DNA from: Leisingera sp. ANG-Vp
GTDB taxonomy: Bacteria; Pseudomonadota; Alphaproteobacteria; Rhodobacterales; Rhodobacteraceae
Reading direction: 5' to 3'
Length of the DNA: 64,000 nt
NCBI RefSeq assembly: GCF_000813725.1
Contig: NZ_JWLD01000027.1
Location: 62,001 to 126,000 of the forward strand
Shown: positions 1,532 to 18,057 of the stretch, in pieces
Layout: each line of letters begins with the position of its first letter
Numbering within the stretch: position 1 is the stretch's first letter
Program-made: the position numbers and the translations under genes
Notes under the pieces: model-generated
Told to the model about the DNA's origin: nothing
Seen by the model: the letters and a program-made list of their open reading frames with translations, nothing else
Database searches by the model: none

Positions 1532-2836
1532 CTAGGACCCGGTCTCTCTGGGGATGTGTTGGTGTGCCCACTGACGTTTGAAGACACCGCGTTGCTTGAT
1601 TGCATCGAGCGTATTCAAGTGTTCTGTTGCCCATGAGCAGATGGTCTGTTGCCCCAATTGTTTGGAGACCTCGACCAAGGCTTCAGCCGCGGAAATAGCT
1701 TGTGGGTCCAGCGAAAGCGCAGCAAGATACGCATCGCCCGCCTGGTGCAGATCATCCAGCGCTTCCAAACATTGCCCGATCATGAACCACGCAATCTCGC
1801 GCCCCGGAGGTGCCAGCTCCGCTGCGTGCCGATAGGCTTTCAATGCTTGCTCGAATTCGTCGCGCTCAATGTGAACCTCGCCCAGCTGAAGCCAAACACG
1901 AGAGTCATTGGGGGAAATCCGGGTCAAGCGCTGAATCCGTGACAAAGCAAGCTCGGTATCTCCGTTCCAAAGTGCTTCCTTGGTTCGACTCTCAATAACA
2001 GGAAACAGCACTTCATCGGCTGCAATCCGCAAAACTTCGGTGGAGCGGTCCAGTTCATTCGCCAACGCTTCCGCACGTTCCATTTCGGCGACCATGCTGG
2101 CACTGTCCTGTCGCATTTGCGGTAAAAAACCCCCAACCCGATGATAGCGACTGTTGACAAACGTCAGAGTGAATGGGTCTAACGCGTCCATTGCTTCATC
2201 AATGATCGTACGGTGCCGCTCTTGCCAGGCCGAGGCCGTCTCGTGGTCGCCAGCGTGTTTCACCGACTGCACAACAACCTGATACGTCGCATCAATCCGG
2301 TCAATTCCGTCGGCGCCGCGTTCTGAAATAGCTTTGAACTCGTCAATAGAGTACGGCACCGCCGGGTCGTCGACATGCATTCTGTAACGTGAATAGCAGT
2401 GCAGGAACGCGGCCGACGTCTCCAGCGGTGTCATCGGTTCCGACAACTGGTAGGCGCCATCAAAAAGCCGTGCGGTCACGGGCTGGAAACACATCTTTGA
2501 CAGAACCCAACCTACACGGATTTTTTGGATCTCGGTCAGATCAGCGAAGTTATCCAGATAGGTCGCTAGCTGTTTGACTTGATCACTCTGTGAGACATCA
2601 AGCGACTGTATTGGATCTACAATATCAAACTCGAAAAACCCCGTGTCGCGCACGAGACTCTCGCGAAAGGATGGATTGAAACTCGCTTGAATATGCGGAT
2701 AGACGCGACCCTCGACCAACGCGCGAAAGCAAAAATCTATTCCATGCACATGAAAAGGCGCGTCAGTCTCTGGGGCAGACAAGTTAAAGTAGGTCTGAAA
2801 AAGGTGCGCGCGAAAACTAGAAGACAAAAGTCTCAT
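1532..2836 (-). CDS. TPR-repeat protein of the RiPP-like cluster
   Basis: 434 aa from the ATG at 2836; a TTG start at 2875 would add 13 residues, and neither has a strong ribosome binding site. The N-terminal 230 residues match nothing I recognise. The C-terminal third contains tandem tetratricopeptide-like helices, for example RVWLQLGEVHIERDEFEQAL followed by AWFMIGQCLEALDDLHQAG and an AYLAALSLDPQ repeat. There is no signal peptide or membrane segment, so it is probably a cytoplasmic scaffold. It lies 28 bases upstream of the YcaO gene in the same direction, which suggests a role in presenting the peptide or assembling the modifying enzymes. Function is inference from context only. Confidence 0.75.
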   Translation of the reverse strand: MRLLSSSFRAHLFQTYFNLSAPETDAPFHVHGIDFCFRALVEGRVYPHIQASFNPSFRESLVRDTGFFEFDIVDPIQSLDVSQSDQVKQLATYLDNFADLTEIQKIRVGWVLSKMCFQPVTARLFDGAYQLSEPMTPLETSAAFLHCYSRYRMHVDDPAVPYSIDEFKAISERGADGIDRIDATYQVVVQSVKHAGDHETASAWQERHRTIIDEAMDALDPFTLTFVNSRYHRVGGFLPQMRQDSASMVAEMERAEALANELDRSTEVLRIAADEVLFPVIESRTKEALWNGDTELALSRIQRLTRISPNDSRVWLQLGEVHIERDEFEQALKAYRHAAELAPPGREIAWFMIGQCLEALDDLHQAGDAYLAALSLDPQAISAAEALVEVSKQLGQQTICSWATEHLNTLDAIKQRGVFKRQWAHQHIPRETGS

Positions 2837-2905
2837 GAGGTACGTTTTTTTCAGTGTATTGCGGCCGATTAGCAAGCCACGCTAACCGGCCAGCCAATGG
2901 AAGGC

Positions 2906-2974
2906 TCAGAACTGAACGCTAAGCGGCGACTTCGAGTCCAGAGTTTCAAATTTCTTGATCTTCTTCTTTTTCAT
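2906..2974 (-). CDS. 22-aa basic peptide ORF, candidate second RiPP substrate
   Basis: A 22-codon ORF whose product begins MKKKKIKKFETLD and ends SPLSVQF. It has a good ribosome binding site (AAAGGAA, about 7 bases before the ATG). It sits between the 64-aa peptide gene and the TPR gene, in the same direction and with short gaps. Six of the first eight residues are lysine, followed by a Ser-rich C-terminus with three Ser and one Thr but no Cys. It could be a second precursor, a short accessory peptide or a translational leader for the TPR gene. It matches no precursor family I know. Statistical gene finders would miss it because of its size, and coding status rests only on the ribosome binding site and position. 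Confidence 0.5.
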   Translation of the reverse strand: MKKKKIKKFETLDSKSPLSVQF

Positions 2975-3011
2975 GACAGATTCCTTTCGTAAAAAAATGA
3001 TATGGTGCCGC

Positions 3012-3206
3012 TTACCAGCAAAGCACCGCAACGGTGGCTCGAACTAAAGACGGAGACATACGATCCCGTGCTTCTTTGTCCAAATCAACCAAGGTAAGGC
3101 CGGTCAAGCCGTCCAGTCCGCTTGCAGCTTCCAGCTGTTTGCGCTGCTCTGCTGAGAAGTCGATGGTTGCAATTGTTTTTGGTGCGCCAAGTTCAGTCTT
3201 GGACAT
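3012..3206 (-). CDS. Putative RiPP precursor peptide ending Cys-Trp (64 aa)
   Basis: The start is fixed by a GGGAGG ribosome binding site 8 bases before the ATG at 3206; an in-frame ATG ten codons upstream has no such site. The 64-aa product has an acidic/amphipathic N-terminal two-thirds (MSKTELGAPK, then helix-like EQRKQLEAAS and LTLVDLDKEARDR). The C-terminus is Ser/Thr/Val-rich: SPSLVRATVAVLCW. The only Cys is residue 63 and the only Trp is residue 64; the only other aromatic is Phe17. It is the first gene of the TPR-YcaO-TfuA unit. That architecture, leader plus small polar/hydrophobic core, is what a RiPP precursor looks like. The leader/core boundary is unknown, and I recognise no named precursor family. 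Confidence 0.7.
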   Translation of the reverse strand: MSKTELGAPKTIATIDFSAEQRKQLEAASGLDGLTGLTLVDLDKEARDRMSPSLVRATVAVLCW

Positions 3207-3375
3207 ATTGGGATCCTCCCGATCTAATATCCACACCTAACCCTTGCACAGAATCGCGGATTCTCGAAGGAATTTTTGCATGCATAGATTGCAATGAAGT
3301 AGCTGTTATGGCCTTTTGAGTCGCAGAAACCCTTTGATCAACTAAACAAACTTGCTTGATAGTGTTGAGAAGCCT
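3207..3375. promoter_or_regulatory. Divergent promoter region of the RiPP-like cluster with two palindromes
   Basis: This 169-base region separates the leftward peptide operon from the rightward protease-like/halogenase pair and must carry both promoters. It holds a perfect 6-bp inverted repeat, AGAATC-GCG-GATTCT (3250-3264). A 5-bp inverted repeat with a 9-base spacer, TTGCA-N9-TGCAA, lies at 3276-3294. Both look like operator sites for dimeric regulators. No regulator gene lies in the part of the cluster seen here. No clear sigma-70 boxes could be assigned. Confidence 0.5.
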
Positions 3376-5463
3376 ATGCCTGAATTTGTTCTCACAAGTA
3401 GCGAAACGGACATGCGTGCGGTTCTCGAAAGTCCTGAGACTAAAGGTTTTCCTGTCCCCTCAAACTGCGCGTCACAATTCAGAAAGCTGTTCCGAAATGG
3501 GAGCAAAATTTCGGAGCCACGGCGAGGCCCAAGGGTATCTCAGGGTTGCCTCGCTGTTCCTGACAACCATGACGAGGCACTCTTGGCCAAGCGATACGCG
3601 GCGCTAAAAGGATACGAAACGGTCCCGTTTTCACAGCTTGCAAACAGCGAAGGGGACGTAACAGTTGTGTTGCCGATAGGGATGGACCCACAGGACGTTT
3701 TGACAAGATTGTGGCCCTTACATGGGTTGGGGACCAAAGCGTGGCCAATATGCAGCTTTCTAGTTGGTGAAAGCTTGGCAAGCCTTGCGCTTTTGATGGC
3801 AAAGCACTTGGTTCCGGACGCCATGAACGCACAGGCTGAAACCCACGTGTTCTCAAATGAGAGAATGGGTGGCGGCGCGACCTATCCTGACGCGGTCGAC
3901 ATGGAAGGACTCAGCGGGGACCAGATCGCCTCGCAAATGACATCCGCTAACGGGACGCTTCTCATTGGAGGACATAGCAGACCGCATTGCGGATTATTCC
4001 CAACGCAAGACGGGCTGATTGGGCTATGCGCAATGCCCGACGGCGGCGCGTCCGGCCGATGCCTTCAGGGCACCGCATGTTTTTTTAAGGGCAGGCCGAT
4101 TGTGCCCCTACAATCGCTTAAGGCGGAACGTGTTTTTTACAACGGCTGCACAACGGCTGGCACTTCGACACGGCGCCCGGATTTGCTAGACGCGTCCGAA
4201 ATGATTGCGCACGCGGTATTGCGTGGTCCAGCGCGCGAATATGTCGGGAACCTGCGCGCCGGTCGCTACTCGGACCAAGAACTATCTTGGTTTGCAGCAC
4301 TTAGCGCGCATGGACTGCGCCCCGCCGAATGCGTGCGCTTGATCGAGGCTCGACGCGGCGATGTCGGGACCGAAAAACTCCCTTCGCTGGTTCATTTTGG
4401 CGACGTCCAAGCTCCGCCCTGGCCTGTCTCGAATGTCGAAATAGCGCAGCCGACATACCGCGAGAACACCATGACATTGGCCTGGACTGGCGCAAGGTCC
4501 ATCAAGACGGCGCTGATCACCGATCCCGCTTGGCTGCTAGCGATGGGCGCAGGGAAGTTCACAATACAGACCCAAAACGCCGAACCAGCGCAAATAGCCG
4601 TCCTCGAGAGCCCGTTCGACAGCGCTTTGTATGTGCTGCTGGACTGCGGCAGCAGCGAACCAGCCCGGCTCAAACTCACCCGGCAGGACACATCGGCAGC
4701 CCCGGACTTCGAAGCCGCGGCGGGCGCGTGTCTGTCAGAAAGCTATGCGAGATTAGCCGAATTGGCGCGATATCCAGCCTTTCGCGATGCTCTTGGTCTG
4801 AATTTGAACGATCTCGAAAACCTGATGCTAACCGAGCAGTGGGAACTGAAAAGCAGCACAGGGGTTCCGCCGCAGAGCACCACAAACACCTCCCCAGGAA
4901 TTCAAGAGGCTCTGCGCCACACTAATGCCTGTATCTTGACCGTTGCTTTGGCAAAATGCTCTGGCAAATGGAGCTGGCAAGACGAATACCTGGACCGCAC
5001 CCTTGCCACACCCGAAAGCACCCCTGGAACCTGCCCAACCTGCGGCGGAGCAACGGTTGCATATCAAAACGCCAGTCTGCTCAACCCCGCTCTGCGGAGA
5101 AGGTCGGTGGCTTGCGGCATCTGCGGTATCGTGCAGGATCAGCCCGACTATGGTCTCTCCTTCACTTTGCAACGTGAAGGTCTGATCACGCACGGATCTG
5201 AGTTTTCCGGCACCGTGCGAGTTGCGAACACCACTAATCGGTCCCGAGATTGCATCTTGGCCGCAACGGTCCGCGGTGCTCAAACACCTCACGCTAACAA
5301 TGCCATCACAGCGTTTTCGATTGCTGCCCAATCCGCGACCTCCGTTCCTTTCCATTTTTCTACGCAAGCTCTGATCAACGAAGTGGTCCAATGCTGGGTA
5401 ATGATCGTCTGCGATGGGGATATCGGTTTTGCGGGGCGCATTTCCGCCATGAGATCAATATAG
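3376..5463 (+). CDS. Caspase/CHAT-like fold protein with zinc ribbon, cluster-associated
   Basis: 695 aa from the ATG at 3376; a TTG at 3352 would add eight residues, and the numbers below count from that TTG. A block LLIGGHSRPHCG (His208, His212) is followed about 55 residues later by VFYNGCTTAGT (Cys266). A long helix-rich segment then leads to VHFGD. This order, His-Gly loop then Cys after a hydrophobic strand, is that of clan CD cysteine peptidases (CHAT, caspase, gingipain type). Near 561-591 there is CPTCGG...CGIC, a four-Cys zinc ribbon, followed by a beta-rich tail. A peptidase that removes the leader is the natural guess. It is 13 bases upstream of the halogenase gene, so probably co-transcribed. 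The peptidase call is from motif order only. Confidence 0.6.
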   Translation: MPEFVLTSSETDMRAVLESPETKGFPVPSNCASQFRKLFRNGSKISEPRRGPRVSQGCLAVPDNHDEALLAKRYAALKGYETVPFSQLANSEGDVTVVLPIGMDPQDVLTRLWPLHGLGTKAWPICSFLVGESLASLALLMAKHLVPDAMNAQAETHVFSNERMGGGATYPDAVDMEGLSGDQIASQMTSANGTLLIGGHSRPHCGLFPTQDGLIGLCAMPDGGASGRCLQGTACFFKGRPIVPLQSLKAERVFYNGCTTAGTSTRRPDLLDASEMIAHAVLRGPAREYVGNLRAGRYSDQELSWFAALSAHGLRPAECVRLIEARRGDVGTEKLPSLVHFGDVQAPPWPVSNVEIAQPTYRENTMTLAWTGARSIKTALITDPAWLLAMGAGKFTIQTQNAEPAQIAVLESPFDSALYVLLDCGSSEPARLKLTRQDTSAAPDFEAAAGACLSESYARLAELARYPAFRDALGLNLNDLENLMLTEQWELKSSTGVPPQSTTNTSPGIQEALRHTNACILTVALAKCSGKWSWQDEYLDRTLATPESTPGTCPTCGGATVAYQNASLLNPALRRRSVACGICGIVQDQPDYGLSFTLQREGLITHGSEFSGTVRVANTTNRSRDCILAATVRGAQTPHANNAITAFSIAAQSATSVPFHFSTQALINEVVQCWVMIVCDGDIGFAGRISAMRSI

Positions 5464-5476
5464 AGGGGTACAAAGC

Positions 5477-6967
5477 ATGCAGTTTGACGTGGCCGTTATC
5501 GGTGGCGGACCCTCGGGGTCGGTCACCGCTAGCTTGCTTGCTATGGGTGGCGCTTCGGTTGTCCTATTTGAGGCAACGTCCTTCCCCCGATACCAGATTG
5601 GCGAGTCGCTGATGGTCTCGACGGTTCAAGGACTGTGCAAATATATCGGTGCCTTGGAGGAGGTCCTCAAGGCGGGGTTCATTCGAAAACCCGGCGGTGT
5701 ATTCAAATGGGGCGCCTCGTCAGAACTTTGGACATTGGCGTTCACCCAAGCCAACGAACTGCTCGAAGACGACGCGAATTTCGCCTTGCATGTAGATCGG
5801 TCGCGTTTCGACTCTATTCTGCTGGAGACGGCCAAACGCCACGGGGTGGAGGTAAGGCAGCCCAATCGCGTTCGCGAGATTGCTCCCAAAACCCCACATG
5901 CAAAAACCATTACCTTTGACACGCCAAGATCCGGCCGTGAACAAGTAACCTGCCGCTTCGTCATTGATGCCAGCGGGTCTTCCTCGCCATTTGCGAAGCA
6001 AGTTGGTACGCGGGTTCACTCGAAATTCTTCAACAACATGGCGTTCTACGGGTATTTTGAAGGGGCCAGTAGACTGCCCTCACCATTGCAAGGAGGGGGG
6101 ATCACCGAAGCCTTCTCGGAAGGCTGGGCTTGGTTTCTCCCCATTCAGGACAACTTGACTAGTGTCGGCGTCGTGTTGGGGGCAGAAAGCAAACCCAATG
6201 ACGGGCCCGAATTCTTGATGAATACCTATTTGCCAGAGTGCCGGCACATCAGTGGGCTTTTGAAAGATGCGCGGTATGCAACAACGAAGCCGTTTGACGT
6301 TTTCCGTATGCGCAGCGACTTTTCCTACACCACGGACCGGTTGGTGCGCGACGGTGTGTTTCTGGTTGGAGATTCCGCCGCCTTTTTAGACCCTTTATTC
6401 ACAACCGGAGTCCATCTTGGTACCTATTCCGGCCTGCTGGCGGCCCGAACGATCTTATCCATCATGGACGACACGCTACCAGACACGGACCTATATCAGG
6501 AGTTTGAAACGCGCTACCGTTACGAATACGAACTTTTTTACCACTACGTTGTGGCCTATTATGACGCAAACGTTGCACCCAACAGCAACTTTTGGTCAAC
6601 GCGTAAGGTCGCCAACACCACGGAGCAGGAAAACTCTTTCTATATCGATCTAATAACGCAAGGTCGTGATACCGCTTTGGACTATTTCGCGTCCAAAATT
6701 GGCTTGGGTGATTTTGTGCAGGAATGGATCGAAAAACTCAGCTATGTTACCACGCCCGAAGAAAAGGCGCTCGCCTGCCGACGCATGGCTGAAGAGATCC
6801 ATTTCCACTTCCCGCCTCCCTCAGGCCCGCGTCCTTTCCACCTTGGGTTTCAGGATGTGCGCAACATGGCCAACGGCCTCGTGCATGACGAGCCGAAGGC
6901 TGAGGACCTGTTGTTCCAACCGTCTCAAGATGGGCTCAGATGGCAGCTACGTGCCACGACGAGTTGA
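5477..6967 (+). CDS. FAD-dependent halogenase
   Basis: 496 aa. The N-terminus carries the FAD Rossmann motif GGGPSG (residues 9-14). YQIGESLM follows at 39-46, then GFIRKPGGVFKWG at 67-79, with Lys71 in the place of the lysine that forms the haloamine or guides HOCl. The halogenase signature WxWxIP appears as WAWFLP (217-222). FLVGDSAAFLDPLF is the second FAD contact. The IGES and GFxxKxG pattern is nearer to the phenol/pyrrole type (PltA, PrnC) than to free-tryptophan halogenases such as PrnA or RebH. It needs reduced FAD from a separate flavin reductase. The candidate substrate is the lone C-terminal Trp of the 64-aa peptide, but this is inference. Confidence 0.85.
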   Translation: MQFDVAVIGGGPSGSVTASLLAMGGASVVLFEATSFPRYQIGESLMVSTVQGLCKYIGALEEVLKAGFIRKPGGVFKWGASSELWTLAFTQANELLEDDANFALHVDRSRFDSILLETAKRHGVEVRQPNRVREIAPKTPHAKTITFDTPRSGREQVTCRFVIDASGSSSPFAKQVGTRVHSKFFNNMAFYGYFEGASRLPSPLQGGGITEAFSEGWAWFLPIQDNLTSVGVVLGAESKPNDGPEFLMNTYLPECRHISGLLKDARYATTKPFDVFRMRSDFSYTTDRLVRDGVFLVGDSAAFLDPLFTTGVHLGTYSGLLAARTILSIMDDTLPDTDLYQEFETRYRYEYELFYHYVVAYYDANVAPNSNFWSTRKVANTTEQENSFYIDLITQGRDTALDYFASKIGLGDFVQEWIEKLSYVTTPEEKALACRRMAEEIHFHFPPPSGPRPFHLGFQDVRNMANGLVHDEPKAEDLLFQPSQDGLRWQLRATTS

Positions 6968-7762
6968 CCACCGTTGCTGCAAAGACATGGTGCTCAGCAA
7001 GAAGATATCTGCCGCTGAATAACGGCGTTGTGAAACATTAACTTCGGGAGCGCCAGCTCAGGATAGAGGACGTTTAAGGTGCTGTGCAGCAACAGGCTGT
7101 TTGGGCTCGAAGCCCGATTTCGCCGCGCGCGGCACGAATGTCTGCTTCCGCCGAAGGAAAACTTATGAGTCGCAAAAGGTAACTTTGCTGCCTCGGCTGT
7201 AAATATTTCGCTTTAAAATCAATCAACCAAGTTCCCCAAAAAGGAAAAACTATGTGTCGCCCGACAAAATTGTCGAATGCCAAGCAAAACTGACCTTCTT
7301 GTCAGATTGCTGACCCAATTCCCGTTTTCTGCTAGCGGGGTTTGTTAGGTTTGATCTGACTTCCTTCAGGAAAACCAGGGCTGATTTGCAGGTTCAATCG
7401 GGGAAGCCGTTTGTACCTGCTGAGCCGTCATCAGCTATGAGCACCAGGCCGGATTGCTGCAGGCGCAGTTGGTCAACTAGCGGCCCTAAGCGAACTTCCG
7501 GTCTGCCTCGCAGCCGGGATCGGGACTCATGCAAGTCGGGCGGAATCCGGTCATTCGCTGAAAGCTCGGGCCGGACATGGCGAAACGTTGGAAGCCGACC
7601 TTCAGGTAACGTCTCATGAGATTTCTGTTCTGCAGTGCCGCAAGTCTGCTGCGAGCCCAGTTCAGGAATTGCTGCGACTCGACGGAACGTCTCTCTTTAC
7701 AGATTTTCGCAGTCTCCGGATCGTGTGGCCGGGCCGCCTTCGGTGGGAAAAATCAGATAAAT
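6968..7762. other. Intergenic region at island edge, no gene recognised
   Basis: 795 bases between the halogenase gene and the nucleoside importer operon. Short ORFs on both strands have no recognisable product, no convincing ribosome binding site and no similarity to known families. A 6-bp inverted repeat, CGACAA-AA-TTGTCG, lies at 7262-7275. The 14-base motif CCGGTCATTCGCTG at 7547-7560 recurs on the other strand at 13762-13775. The composition changes here from the lower-GC island to the GC-rich flank. Confidence 0.6.
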
Positions 7763-7778: not shown

Positions 7779-7814
7779 AAAATGTTTCACTGCCGAAAAA
7801 ACTGGGAGGGAACT

Positions 7815-8804
7815 ATGATGAACGCTTCACTAACAAGAAGAGCCGTGCTTGCGGTTTTCTTTGCTTGCGCAAGCCTGCTGAGCGCGGGTGCTGCCGTGGC
7901 CGAAAAGACCAAGGTTGCAGCAATCTACACGCTGCCCGTCGAGCAGCAATGGATCAGCCGGATCCACAAGGCTCTGAACGCCGCAGCCGAGCGTGGCGAT
8001 ATCGACTATGTCTTCTCGGAGAATGTGGCGAATACCGACTATGAGCGGGTGATGCGCGAATATGCCGAACAGGGGCAGCAGCTTATTGTTGGTGAGGTGT
8101 TCGGGCTTGAGCGCGCGGCGCGCAAGGTTGCAAAAGACTACCCCGGAACCGCTTTTCTGATGGGATCTTCTTTTGGTCCGGTGGCGCCGAACTTCTCAGT
8201 GTTCGACAACTGGATTCATGAGCCGTCCTACCTGTCCGGCATGGTTGCGGGTGCCGCGACCGAATCGAATGTGATCGGCATGGTCGGCGGATATGCCATT
8301 CCCGAGGTGAACCGTCTGATGCATGCCTTCATGGATGGCGCGCGGGAAGTGAACCCGGATGTGAAGTTCATCGTGAACTTCATCGACAGCTGGTATGACC
8401 CGCCAAAGGCCAAGGAAAGCGCCTTTGCCATGATGGATGCAGGGGCGGACGTGATGTACGCCGAACGCTTTGGCGTATCCGACGCAGCCGTTGAGCGCGG
8501 TGTGAAGGCCGTAGGCAATGTCATCGACACCTCCGGCGACTATCCGGGCACCATCATGGCGTCGGCCCTCTGGCATATGGAAGCAACCATCGACAAGGCG
8601 GTTGCCAATGTGGCCGGCGGCAGCTTTGAGGCTGCGGATTACGGCCAGTACAGTTTCATGGCCTATGGCGGCGGGTCTCTGGTGATGGACGAAGGCTTGG
8701 TATCCGCAGAAACCGCGGCGGCCGTGAAGGCGCGCGAGGCCGAAATTCTGGACGGGCTGTTCCGTGTGAACGTGAACGATGCCCGCCCGGTTTCCGACAA
8801 CTGA
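7815..8804 (+). CDS. BMP-family ABC transporter substrate-binding protein (nucleoside type)
   Basis: 329 aa, secreted. The start at 7815 (or the adjacent ATG at 7818) follows a GGGAGG ribosome binding site. A signal peptide is evident: Arg-Arg, a hydrophobic stretch AVLAVFFACASLL, then a cleavage region near AAVAEK. The mature part has the BMP/PnrA pattern (TKVAAIYTLPVEQQWISRIH, VIGMVGGYAIPEVNR, MDAGADVMYAE). BMP proteins bind purine or pyrimidine nucleosides, or in some cases other ligands, for an ABC importer. It heads an operon with an ATPase of the double-cassette type, two permeases and cytosine deaminase, so a nucleoside or nucleobase ligand is likely. Confidence 0.9.
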   Translation: MMNASLTRRAVLAVFFACASLLSAGAAVAEKTKVAAIYTLPVEQQWISRIHKALNAAAERGDIDYVFSENVANTDYERVMREYAEQGQQLIVGEVFGLERAARKVAKDYPGTAFLMGSSFGPVAPNFSVFDNWIHEPSYLSGMVAGAATESNVIGMVGGYAIPEVNRLMHAFMDGAREVNPDVKFIVNFIDSWYDPPKAKESAFAMMDAGADVMYAERFGVSDAAVERGVKAVGNVIDTSGDYPGTIMASALWHMEATIDKAVANVAGGSFEAADYGQYSFMAYGGGSLVMDEGLVSAETAAAVKAREAEILDGLFRVNVNDARPVSDN

Positions 8805-17171: not shown

Positions 17172-18057
17172 TAGTGTCAGGACCCATTGATTTCCGGTGG
17201 GTGGCGTGATTCACGGTTCGAAAATTGAGCGGTGATATGTCTGATCTTTTCTGGCTGACGGACGCGCAGATGGCCCGTCGTGAACCTTGTTTTCCGAAGT
17301 CCCACGGCAAGCCGCGTGTTGATGACCGGCGTGTTTTGAGCAGAATAGTCTTCATCAATCGCAATGGTTTGCGCTGGCGTGATGCGCCCAAAGATTACGG
17401 CCCGCACAAGACCTTGTACAACCGTTGGAAGCGTTGGAGCGACAAAGGCATCTTTGCACAGATGATGGCCGGTCTGGCTGCTGATCACGGTGAGGAAAAG
17501 ACCGTGATGATCGATGCAACTTACCTGAAAGCACGCCGTACGGCCTCCAGTCTTGGGGTTAAAAAGGGGGGCGTGGGCGCCTGATCGGGCGCACTAAGGG
17601 CGGCATGAACACTAAGCTGCACGCAATCTGTGACAGCCAGGGGCGCCCACTGAACCTGTTCGTGACCGCCGGACAGGTCAGTGATTACACCGGTGCAAAG
17701 GCGCTGCCGAGCGGCCTGCCTGACGTCCAATGGCTTCTCGGAGATCGCGGGTAAGATGCCGATTGGTTTAGAGAAGGGTTGAAAGACAAAGGGATACGCG
17801 CCTGCATCCCCGGTTGAAAGCAGCGCAAGAAAGCCATCAGATACGACAGACGCCGATATAAGCGGCGCAACCGCCCCTCTCGTGACATTGCTGCGCAATG
17901 CACTGCCGGGCAGTGATTGAGATTATGTTCGGCAGGCTGAAGGACTGGCGGCGGGTTGCGACACGATACGACAGATGCCCAAAAGTCTTCCCGTCAGCAA
18001 TCGCGCTTGCAGCCCTCGTTATCTGCTGGCTTTGAAACTCAATGAGTCCAGAGCCTA
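17172..18057 (+). mobile_element. Decayed IS5-type insertion sequence
   Basis: About 886 bases bounded by imperfect inverted repeats. The left end is TAGTGTCAGGACCCATTGAT and the reverse complement of the right end is TAGGCTCTGGACTCATTGAG. This is the end sequence style of IS5/IS427-group elements. The transposase reading frame inside is broken (see the pseudogene). It lies between the nitronate monooxygenase gene and the response regulator gene and disrupts neither. Confidence 0.75.
17237..18037 (+). pseudogene. IS5-family transposase, frameshifted
   Basis: The first 116 codons (from MSDLFWLTDAQMAR; then NGLRWRDAPKDYGPHKTLYNRWKRW, MIDATYLKARRTASSL) are a normal IS5-family N-terminus. The frame shifts near 17575 (after KKGGVGA). 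The downstream part continues in another frame as IGRTKGGMNTKLHAICD...GQVSDYTGAKAL, with in-frame stops at about 17753 and 17816. The catalytic DDE set is therefore split and the element cannot move by itself. Confidence 0.85.

Follow-up and report, generated by a model that had tools for sequence, protein, structure and literature searches.

The locus lies at the left end of the window, by which we mean the whole 64,000-nucleotide stretch of DNA analysed here, and comprises a row of minus-strand genes encoding, in this order, a 64-aa peptide (64-mer), a 22-aa peptide (22-mer), a TPR protein, a YcaO protein and a TfuA protein, with an orphan protein and a flavin halogenase encoded divergently from the row (Table 1). 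No transporter or recognised protease was found in the cluster. A 64-aa open reading frame (ORF) ending in VAVLCW had been reported at 3012–3206 in the initial annotation and was borne out here, on the minus strand, a strand which that annotation had left out; the 22-aa ORF between the 64-aa gene and the TPR gene had been overlooked.

Table 1. Features of the cluster, from left to right in window coordinates.
Feature	Position	Strand	Basis
TfuA gene, first part (rest left of the window; L002 8977–10233)	1–232	−	PF07812, 133.4 bits
YcaO protein	229–1605	−	PF02624, 216.5 bits
TPR protein (434 aa if started at ATG 2836), a proposed scaffold for peptide binding	1532–2836	−	Pfam; Streptomyces homologue
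13-bp hairpin between 22-aa ORF and TPR gene	2862–2892	−	folding energy
22-aa Lys-rich ORF MKKKKIKKFETLDSKSPLSVQF, second candidate precursor	2906–2974	−	similarity to Streptomyces 22-aa ORF
64-aa candidate precursor peptide	3012–3206	−	ORF reading, codon score, ribosome-binding site
GGGAGGA ribosome-binding site of 64-aa ORF	3214–3220	−	sequence; −10.3 kcal/mol
Orphan protein of 695 aa (703 aa if read from TTG 3352), encoded divergently to the peptide gene	3376–5463	+	ORF
Flavin-dependent halogenase, CndH/CmlS type	5477–6967	+	PF04820; 3e1t, 354 bits

The best NCBIfam models for the YcaO and TfuA proteins are the McrA-glycine thioamidation pair, each scoring under its cut-off (TIGR03266, 198 bits against 365; NF033432, 167.6 bits against 235.2), and the TfuA gene overlaps the YcaO stop codon. 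Azoline-type YcaO enzymes carry a C-terminal PxPxP motif and go with an RRE or ThiF-type partner; here, PxPxP is absent from the last 20 residues of YcaO, and scanning the cluster proteins against Pfam and NCBIfam returned no RRE or ThiF family. An adjacent TfuA gene marks the thioamide-forming arrangement of YcaO (PMC8120280; this and all other papers are cited for their available parts), while an azoline-forming, Cys-using YcaO with an RRE domain is exemplified by MprC (PMC12455567). Because TfuA-paired YcaO enzymes act on backbone amides, a Cys is not required in the substrate. The original suggestion that the Cys of the 64-mer suits YcaO/TfuA chemistry keeps its precedent in the YcaO that acts on the Cys residues of SrpE, and loses force for the pair present here, whose type needs no Cys.

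The annotated starts of the TPR and YcaO genes have almost no ribosome-binding site (+0.4 and +0.2). The YcaO ATG at 1605 overlaps the TPR gene and lacks such a site (+0.2), and the ATG at 1503 follows the TPR stop codon with a pairing of −4.3 and may be the true start. The strong site of the peptide gene, set against the near-absent ones of the TPR and YcaO genes, is the stoichiometry expected for a precursor and its enzymes.

As judged by its distribution in related genomes, the gene row is accessory. At E ≤ 1e-60, YcaO had no match in any of the 393 other family genomes, and a contig scan for YcaO found nothing. At E ≤ 1e-20, matches appeared in 20 of the 21 genus genomes (own included), with 32–35% identity outside the own genome; these matches, in 19 of the 20 other genus genomes, are probably of a chromosomal type like that on contig C133 of the own genome, where we observed a second YcaO-TfuA-like pair (L048 6813–8036 and 8033–9379, plus strand; TfuA called by eye). 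Alignments with three relatives end left of a transporter gene, just before the cluster, at window positions 7479, 7656 and 7707, and a single isolated match of 172 bp lies beyond the alignment end, at 7102–7266, in one of the three. The transporter gene itself, of the Bmp family (7782–8804, plus strand), stands right of the cluster and has close orthologues in 3 of the 20 other genus genomes; the sequence to its left differs in each relative, and this site looks variable. A transposase-like ORF was noticed by eye at 17225–17584 (plus strand). The nearest named plasmid relatives of the cluster proteins are actinobacterial, among them Streptomyces cadmiisoli for YcaO (41.9% identity) and TfuA (139 identities over 376 aligned residues) and Nonomuraea for the halogenase (44.2%); an actinobacterial donor is only suggested by these matches, the plasmid collection being a biased sample.

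The 64-aa ORF runs from ATG 3206 to a TAA stop at 3012. Given this start, it contains no Cys other than Cys63 and no Trp other than Trp64, in agreement with the first reading; an alternative in-frame GTG at 3236 would bring in a second Trp, with a ribosome-binding site pairing of −4.3 kcal/mol versus −10.3 kcal/mol for ATG 3206. The strength claimed for this site holds, as, of the 2069 window ATGs, just 1.35% are preceded by a site equally strong or stronger, and so does the claimed first position in the operon, since the gene heads the minus-strand row. The acidic, leader-like N-terminus proved a weak point, residues 1–50 carrying a net charge of −2. The codon score of the ORF, 0.186 bits per codon on a scale trained on only five genes and hence rough, was matched by none of 60 out-of-frame ORFs (at least 40 aa, from the five large cluster genes), and held-out 64-codon windows of those genes gave median scores of 0.08 to 0.21. 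Because codon score and ribosome-binding site both beat their nulls, the 64-aa ORF is probably translated. That it is instead a chance reading frame in a divergent promoter region is very improbable: regions between divergent genes often hold spurious ORFs, this one does sit between divergent genes, and no convincing homologue of the 64-mer was found, all of which would fit chance; however, both of these scores, and a codon score below zero for the ORF at 3034–3240 on the opposite strand, tell against chance.

In the surrounding DNA, a scan of 2700–3500 for sigma-70-like promoters left the minus strand without a match, the lone match in this interval lying on the plus strand at the level found in shuffles, and Rfam had no match in 2600–3500. 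Two copies of the LXXXXL leader motif in the 64-mer were dropped as evidence, as 71% of 64-mer shuffles also contain one.

Homologue searches with the 64-mer returned itself alone in its own genome. Across 61 relatives (own included), nine had a match at E ≤ 1, eight of them other genomes, in which the matches were partial (E 0.08–0.95) and lay within ORFs of 130–584 codons; across 394 family genomes (own included), three had a match at E ≤ 0.05, the own genome among them, the other two again being partial (E 0.004–0.025) and within ORFs of 336–439 codons. We took these weak matches to be chance. No match was found among plasmids or among viral contigs, leaving no convincing homologue, by these comparisons, in 393 other family genomes, 60 relatives, plasmids or viral contigs, and Pfam and NCBIfam gave no family for the 64-mer up to E 10. 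Beside the Streptomyces and Kitasatospora homologues of the TPR protein, no 64-mer-like peptide was recognised; these go with other short ORFs.

The Cys-Trp ending is rare, yet was picked out post hoc. Among 2453 distinct ORFs of 30–120 aa from the window and the retrieved loci, 6 end in CW or WC, as do 16 of 16,912 ORFs from 20 shuffled windows; counts of a sole Cys plus sole Trp at the terminus were zero in both the real and the shuffled sets, in a scan that takes the longest start and reads the 64-aa ORF from its GTG. It is unlikely, though worth weighing, that the 64-aa ORF encodes a functional but unmodified small protein, for example an immunity or regulatory one, and that its ending is a coincidence. 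Such a protein would fit a sequence with neither homologue nor family, a post hoc choice of an ending that about 0.1–0.25% of ORFs show by chance, and a YcaO-TfuA pair of a type with no call for Cys; it fits less well with a gene that heads its row and has by far the strongest ribosome-binding site of the minus-strand genes, or with a sole Cys and Trp placed at the very end, at a locus with YcaO and a halogenase, in a match to a published core ending (available part of PMC10858898).

The 22-mer ends in VQF and contains no Cys, Tyr, Trp or His. Its codon score was reached by 4 of the 60 null ORFs, and its ribosome-binding site is moderate, 16% of window ATGs having one as strong. An unannotated 22-aa ORF, MKRNTNNLFQTFNPKRPLTTLV, lies upstream of the gene for the TPR homologue in Streptomyces (L035 8740–8808); the two 22-mers match over their length with a score of 35 (shuffle p 0.0004 and 0.0002), and together with its own longer form this ORF ranks first of the 373 short ORFs in the Streptomyces locus. 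Kitasatospora likewise has an unannotated ORF upstream of its TPR gene, of 28 aa and with a GGAGG site (L037 8166–8252), the product of which is dissimilar to the other short peptides (p 0.82). Between the 64-mer and the 22-mer themselves there is no similarity (p 0.20). Judged by these comparisons, the 22-mer has better conservation evidence than the 64-mer. In the window, Streptomyces and Kitasatospora alike, a hairpin lies between the short ORF and the TPR gene (z −3.4, −4.9 and −5.4); the window hairpin region, 2837–2905, folds with −25.3 kcal/mol and received no terminator call, and T runs follow both actinobacterial hairpins but not that of the window.

Pfam places TPR hits in the C-terminal third of the TPR protein (scanned from an upstream TTG). 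A full-length homologue with 38.1% identity is present in Streptomyces sp. NBC_00015 and NBC_00723, whose two plasmids are near identical (TPR 99.8%) and were counted once, and homologues occur in 3 of 72,556 plasmid records. Among 337 class and 398 phylum genomes, the TPR profile found the own genome only, and no homologue turned up among phages and viral contigs; a contig scan with the TPR alignment found nothing, which is weak evidence, only two short peptide patterns having been used. Searched against plasmids, the Streptomyces and Kitasatospora TPR proteins returned themselves only, and the Streptomyces 22-mer its own two plasmids only. AlphaFold2 run on the single sequence of the window TPR protein gave a mean pLDDT of 39. 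On the plasmid, some 92 kb separate the Streptomyces TPR gene from the nearest YcaO gene; on both Streptomyces plasmids (L035, L036) the YcaO gene was matched as two overlapping pieces and is possibly frameshifted or split. The protein downstream of the Kitasatospora TPR gene has what we take to be an HTTM-like appearance, a reading dropped when Pfam gave no hit.

These observations raise the possibility, which we regard as substantial but doubtful, that the 22-mer is the precursor and that the 64-aa ORF has another role, encoding either a leader that acts in trans or a small protein that partners YcaO, TfuA or the TPR protein. In that case, the conserved F-x-T-x-x-x-K-x-P-L of the 22-mer would be bound by the TPR protein, and a brake on transcription at the hairpin would hold the level of peptide above that of enzyme. 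Consistent with this, a short ORF (22, 22 and 28 codons) followed by a hairpin precedes the TPR gene in all three families, and the window and Streptomyces 22-mers are similar at the p values and rank given above. The dissimilar Kitasatospora 28-mer and the codon score that 4 of 60 null ORFs attain weaken the case, however, as does a peptide offering the halogenase no aromatic residue except Phe; moreover, with no YcaO close by, the Streptomyces pair shows a link between peptide and TPR protein only.

Flavin-dependent halogenases share GxGxxG, a WxWxIP-like motif, an Fx.Px.Sx.G-like motif and a catalytic Lys. All are complete in the window halogenase (GGGPSG, WAWFLP, FLDPLFTTG and Lys71), the catalytic Lys falling in an alignment column that CndH and CmlS have in common with it. 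Its sequence matches CndH (3e1t) with 354 bits, CmlS with 209 bits and MibH (5uao) with 24 bits, so that CndH, the chondrochloren halogenase (PMC8539768), is its closest solved relative. CndH is cited for tyrosinyl substrates (PMC8269204), and the halogenase type, as assigned from sequence, points to tyrosyl rather than indole substrates; unlike these, the 64-mer has no Tyr. Tyr is absent from both short peptides, and only the 64-mer has a Trp; were either peptide its substrate, the halogenase would thus find no indole or phenol other than Trp64. The idea that a terminal Trp suits the neighbouring halogenase has a precedent in the bromination of the SrpE Trp, but it had leaned on the Pfam name Trp_halogenase, and the kin of the enzyme are CndH and CmlS.

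A C-terminal Trp beside a halogenase also recalls the ammosamide pathway (PMC12424672), in which light the 64-mer would be a scaffold peptide extended by an aminoacyl-tRNA-dependent ligase. We consider this extremely improbable: Cys and Trp are already encoded in the 64-mer, and no peptide aminoacyl-tRNA ligase (PEARL) was detected among the six cluster proteins scanned, so that the earlier remark that no amino-acid ligase is seen stands.

In the srp proteusin system of sponge symbionts, SrpE has the core LCCCW, the Cys residues of which are converted to thiazolines by YcaO; SrpI, which prefers Trp as last residue and tolerates one added Ala but not three, brominates the C-terminal Trp in a leader-dependent manner, its action being confined to the terminal position and the one beside it (PMC10858898, PMC10286304). 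The likeness to our locus lies in a C-terminal Leu-Cys...Trp and in a YcaO (SrpC) and a flavin halogenase (SrpI) beside the peptide gene, and in the 64-mer, too, a Cys adjoins the very last Trp. The differences are as follows: one Cys versus three in the SrpE core; no match to a nitrile-hydratase-like leader family at E ≤ 10 in either Pfam or NCBIfam; a whole peptide of 64 aa versus srp-type leaders of at least 80 aa (PMC10858898); a YcaO that is TfuA-paired and without PxPxP, RRE or ThiF family; and a halogenase nearest to CndH/CmlS (5uao, 24 bits), whereas SrpI was found with MibH as the hook. Because leader, YcaO type and halogenase type differ, we do not class the 64-mer, on its sequence features, as an srp-type member. 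By analogy with srp, a precedent that the initial annotation did not cite, the idea of YcaO acting on Cys and a halogenase on the terminal Trp is nevertheless chemically sound, and the Leu-Cys-Trp end is a plausible candidate modification site.

Clusters for TfuA-YcaO thioamidated RiPPs resemble the locus in their adjacent YcaO and TfuA genes (PMC8120280, PMC6511847), to which the window adds a TPR protein, a CndH-type halogenase, the orphan 695-aa protein and two short ORFs; the terms 'halogen', 'TPR' and 'tetratricopeptide' have no occurrence in the available main text of these two papers. The crocagin precursor CgnA, a Lys-rich peptide of 21 aa with the core Ile-Tyr-Trp, invites comparison with the 22-mer by its length and composition, and crocagin is further alike in having a Trp-ended core formed by the last few residues and peptide-binding proteins that guide the enzymes (PMC10070186). 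The Tyr-Trp kept in crocagin-like precursors is absent here, however (LCW in the 64-mer, VQF in the 22-mer), and TPR does not occur in the available part of the crocagin paper. A full-text literature search for papers that combine YcaO, TfuA and a halogenase with a precursor peptide, with most subscription journals outside its scope, produced one paper, the available part of which names these enzymes in general terms only.

The locus is best read as a RiPP cluster of TfuA type in which two peptides, of 64 aa and 22 aa, are candidates for the precursor. The gene order, protein families, codon usage, ribosome-binding site and halogenase motifs on which it draws are observed. That the 64-mer is a precursor that undergoes modification, whether alone or alongside the 22-mer, we put at just short of an even chance. 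From the first precursor reading, we retain a gene that looks translated, a YcaO/TfuA row and an adjacent halogenase; against it stand the homologue searches, the types of YcaO and halogenase, and the 22-mer it had missed. For the 64-mer as precursor also speak its coding signal and ribosome-binding site, the accessory nature of the cluster and the srp precedent; against it also speak the other short ORFs beside the actinobacterial TPR genes, the lack of a well-initiated, CW-ending ORF among the 11 short ORFs listed at the S. cadmiisoli locus, a cluster in which neither transporter nor recognised protease was found, and the missing promoter match on the minus strand upstream of the gene.

Under this reading of the 64-mer, the ORF would encode the precursor for a small YcaO-TfuA RiPP cluster gained by horizontal transfer, with the first fifty or so residues as leader and ...VAVLCW as the core or part of it; its role as substrate, every modification, leader removal and the product are predicted. 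The TPR protein would replace the usual leader-binding domain and present the peptide, YcaO would activate a backbone amide with ATP, and TfuA would help sulfur delivery to yield a thioamide, a thiazoline at Cys63 being the less likely outcome. The halogenase may then modify the terminal Trp64, and a putative protease would free the peptide end. The 22-mer would be either a further precursor or a partner for the TPR protein. In a more elaborate form, which we think decidedly unlikely, the precursor is split, and the TPR-bound 22-mer, as a trans leader, directs YcaO-TfuA and the halogenase to the Leu-Cys-Trp of the 64-mer.

If the 64-mer is the substrate, the cluster would represent a TfuA-type counterpart of the srp pathway, joining backbone thioamidation to a CndH-type halogenase on a ribosomal peptide, a pairing for which the searches made turned up no earlier test. 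If the precursor is indeed split, a thioamidated, halogenated, Trp-ended product would arise without an RRE domain, and a TPR family common to an alphaproteobacterium-side cluster and Streptomyces would recognise a Lys-rich 22-mer. Should the 22-mer be the substrate, the TPR family and its matching short peptide would provide a handle on precursors that automatic annotation skips.

The orphan protein gave no Pfam or NCBIfam hit over cut-off, no PDB sequence match up to E 10, and no homologue in 288 other class genomes, among plasmids (only noise at E 4–5) or among viral contigs; its single-sequence AlphaFold2 model has a mean pLDDT of 36. Two CxxC pairs were noted near its C-terminal third. 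The stretches GGHSRPHC and VFYNGCTTAG presumably recall caspase-like peptidases, a guess that no family match supports and that was set aside, and a defence-system reading was likewise rejected, PADLOC returning only two weak hits, both to the halogenase.

In the closest YcaO-TfuA locus found, that of S. cadmiisoli, none of the 11 short ORFs listed is well initiated and ends in CW. We did observe, at 5756–5896 (minus strand) of this locus (L012), beside a cupin gene and the YcaO-TfuA pair, an ORF of 46 aa, rich in Glu and with a Gly-Gly close to its end, which is possibly the precursor of the S. cadmiisoli cluster.
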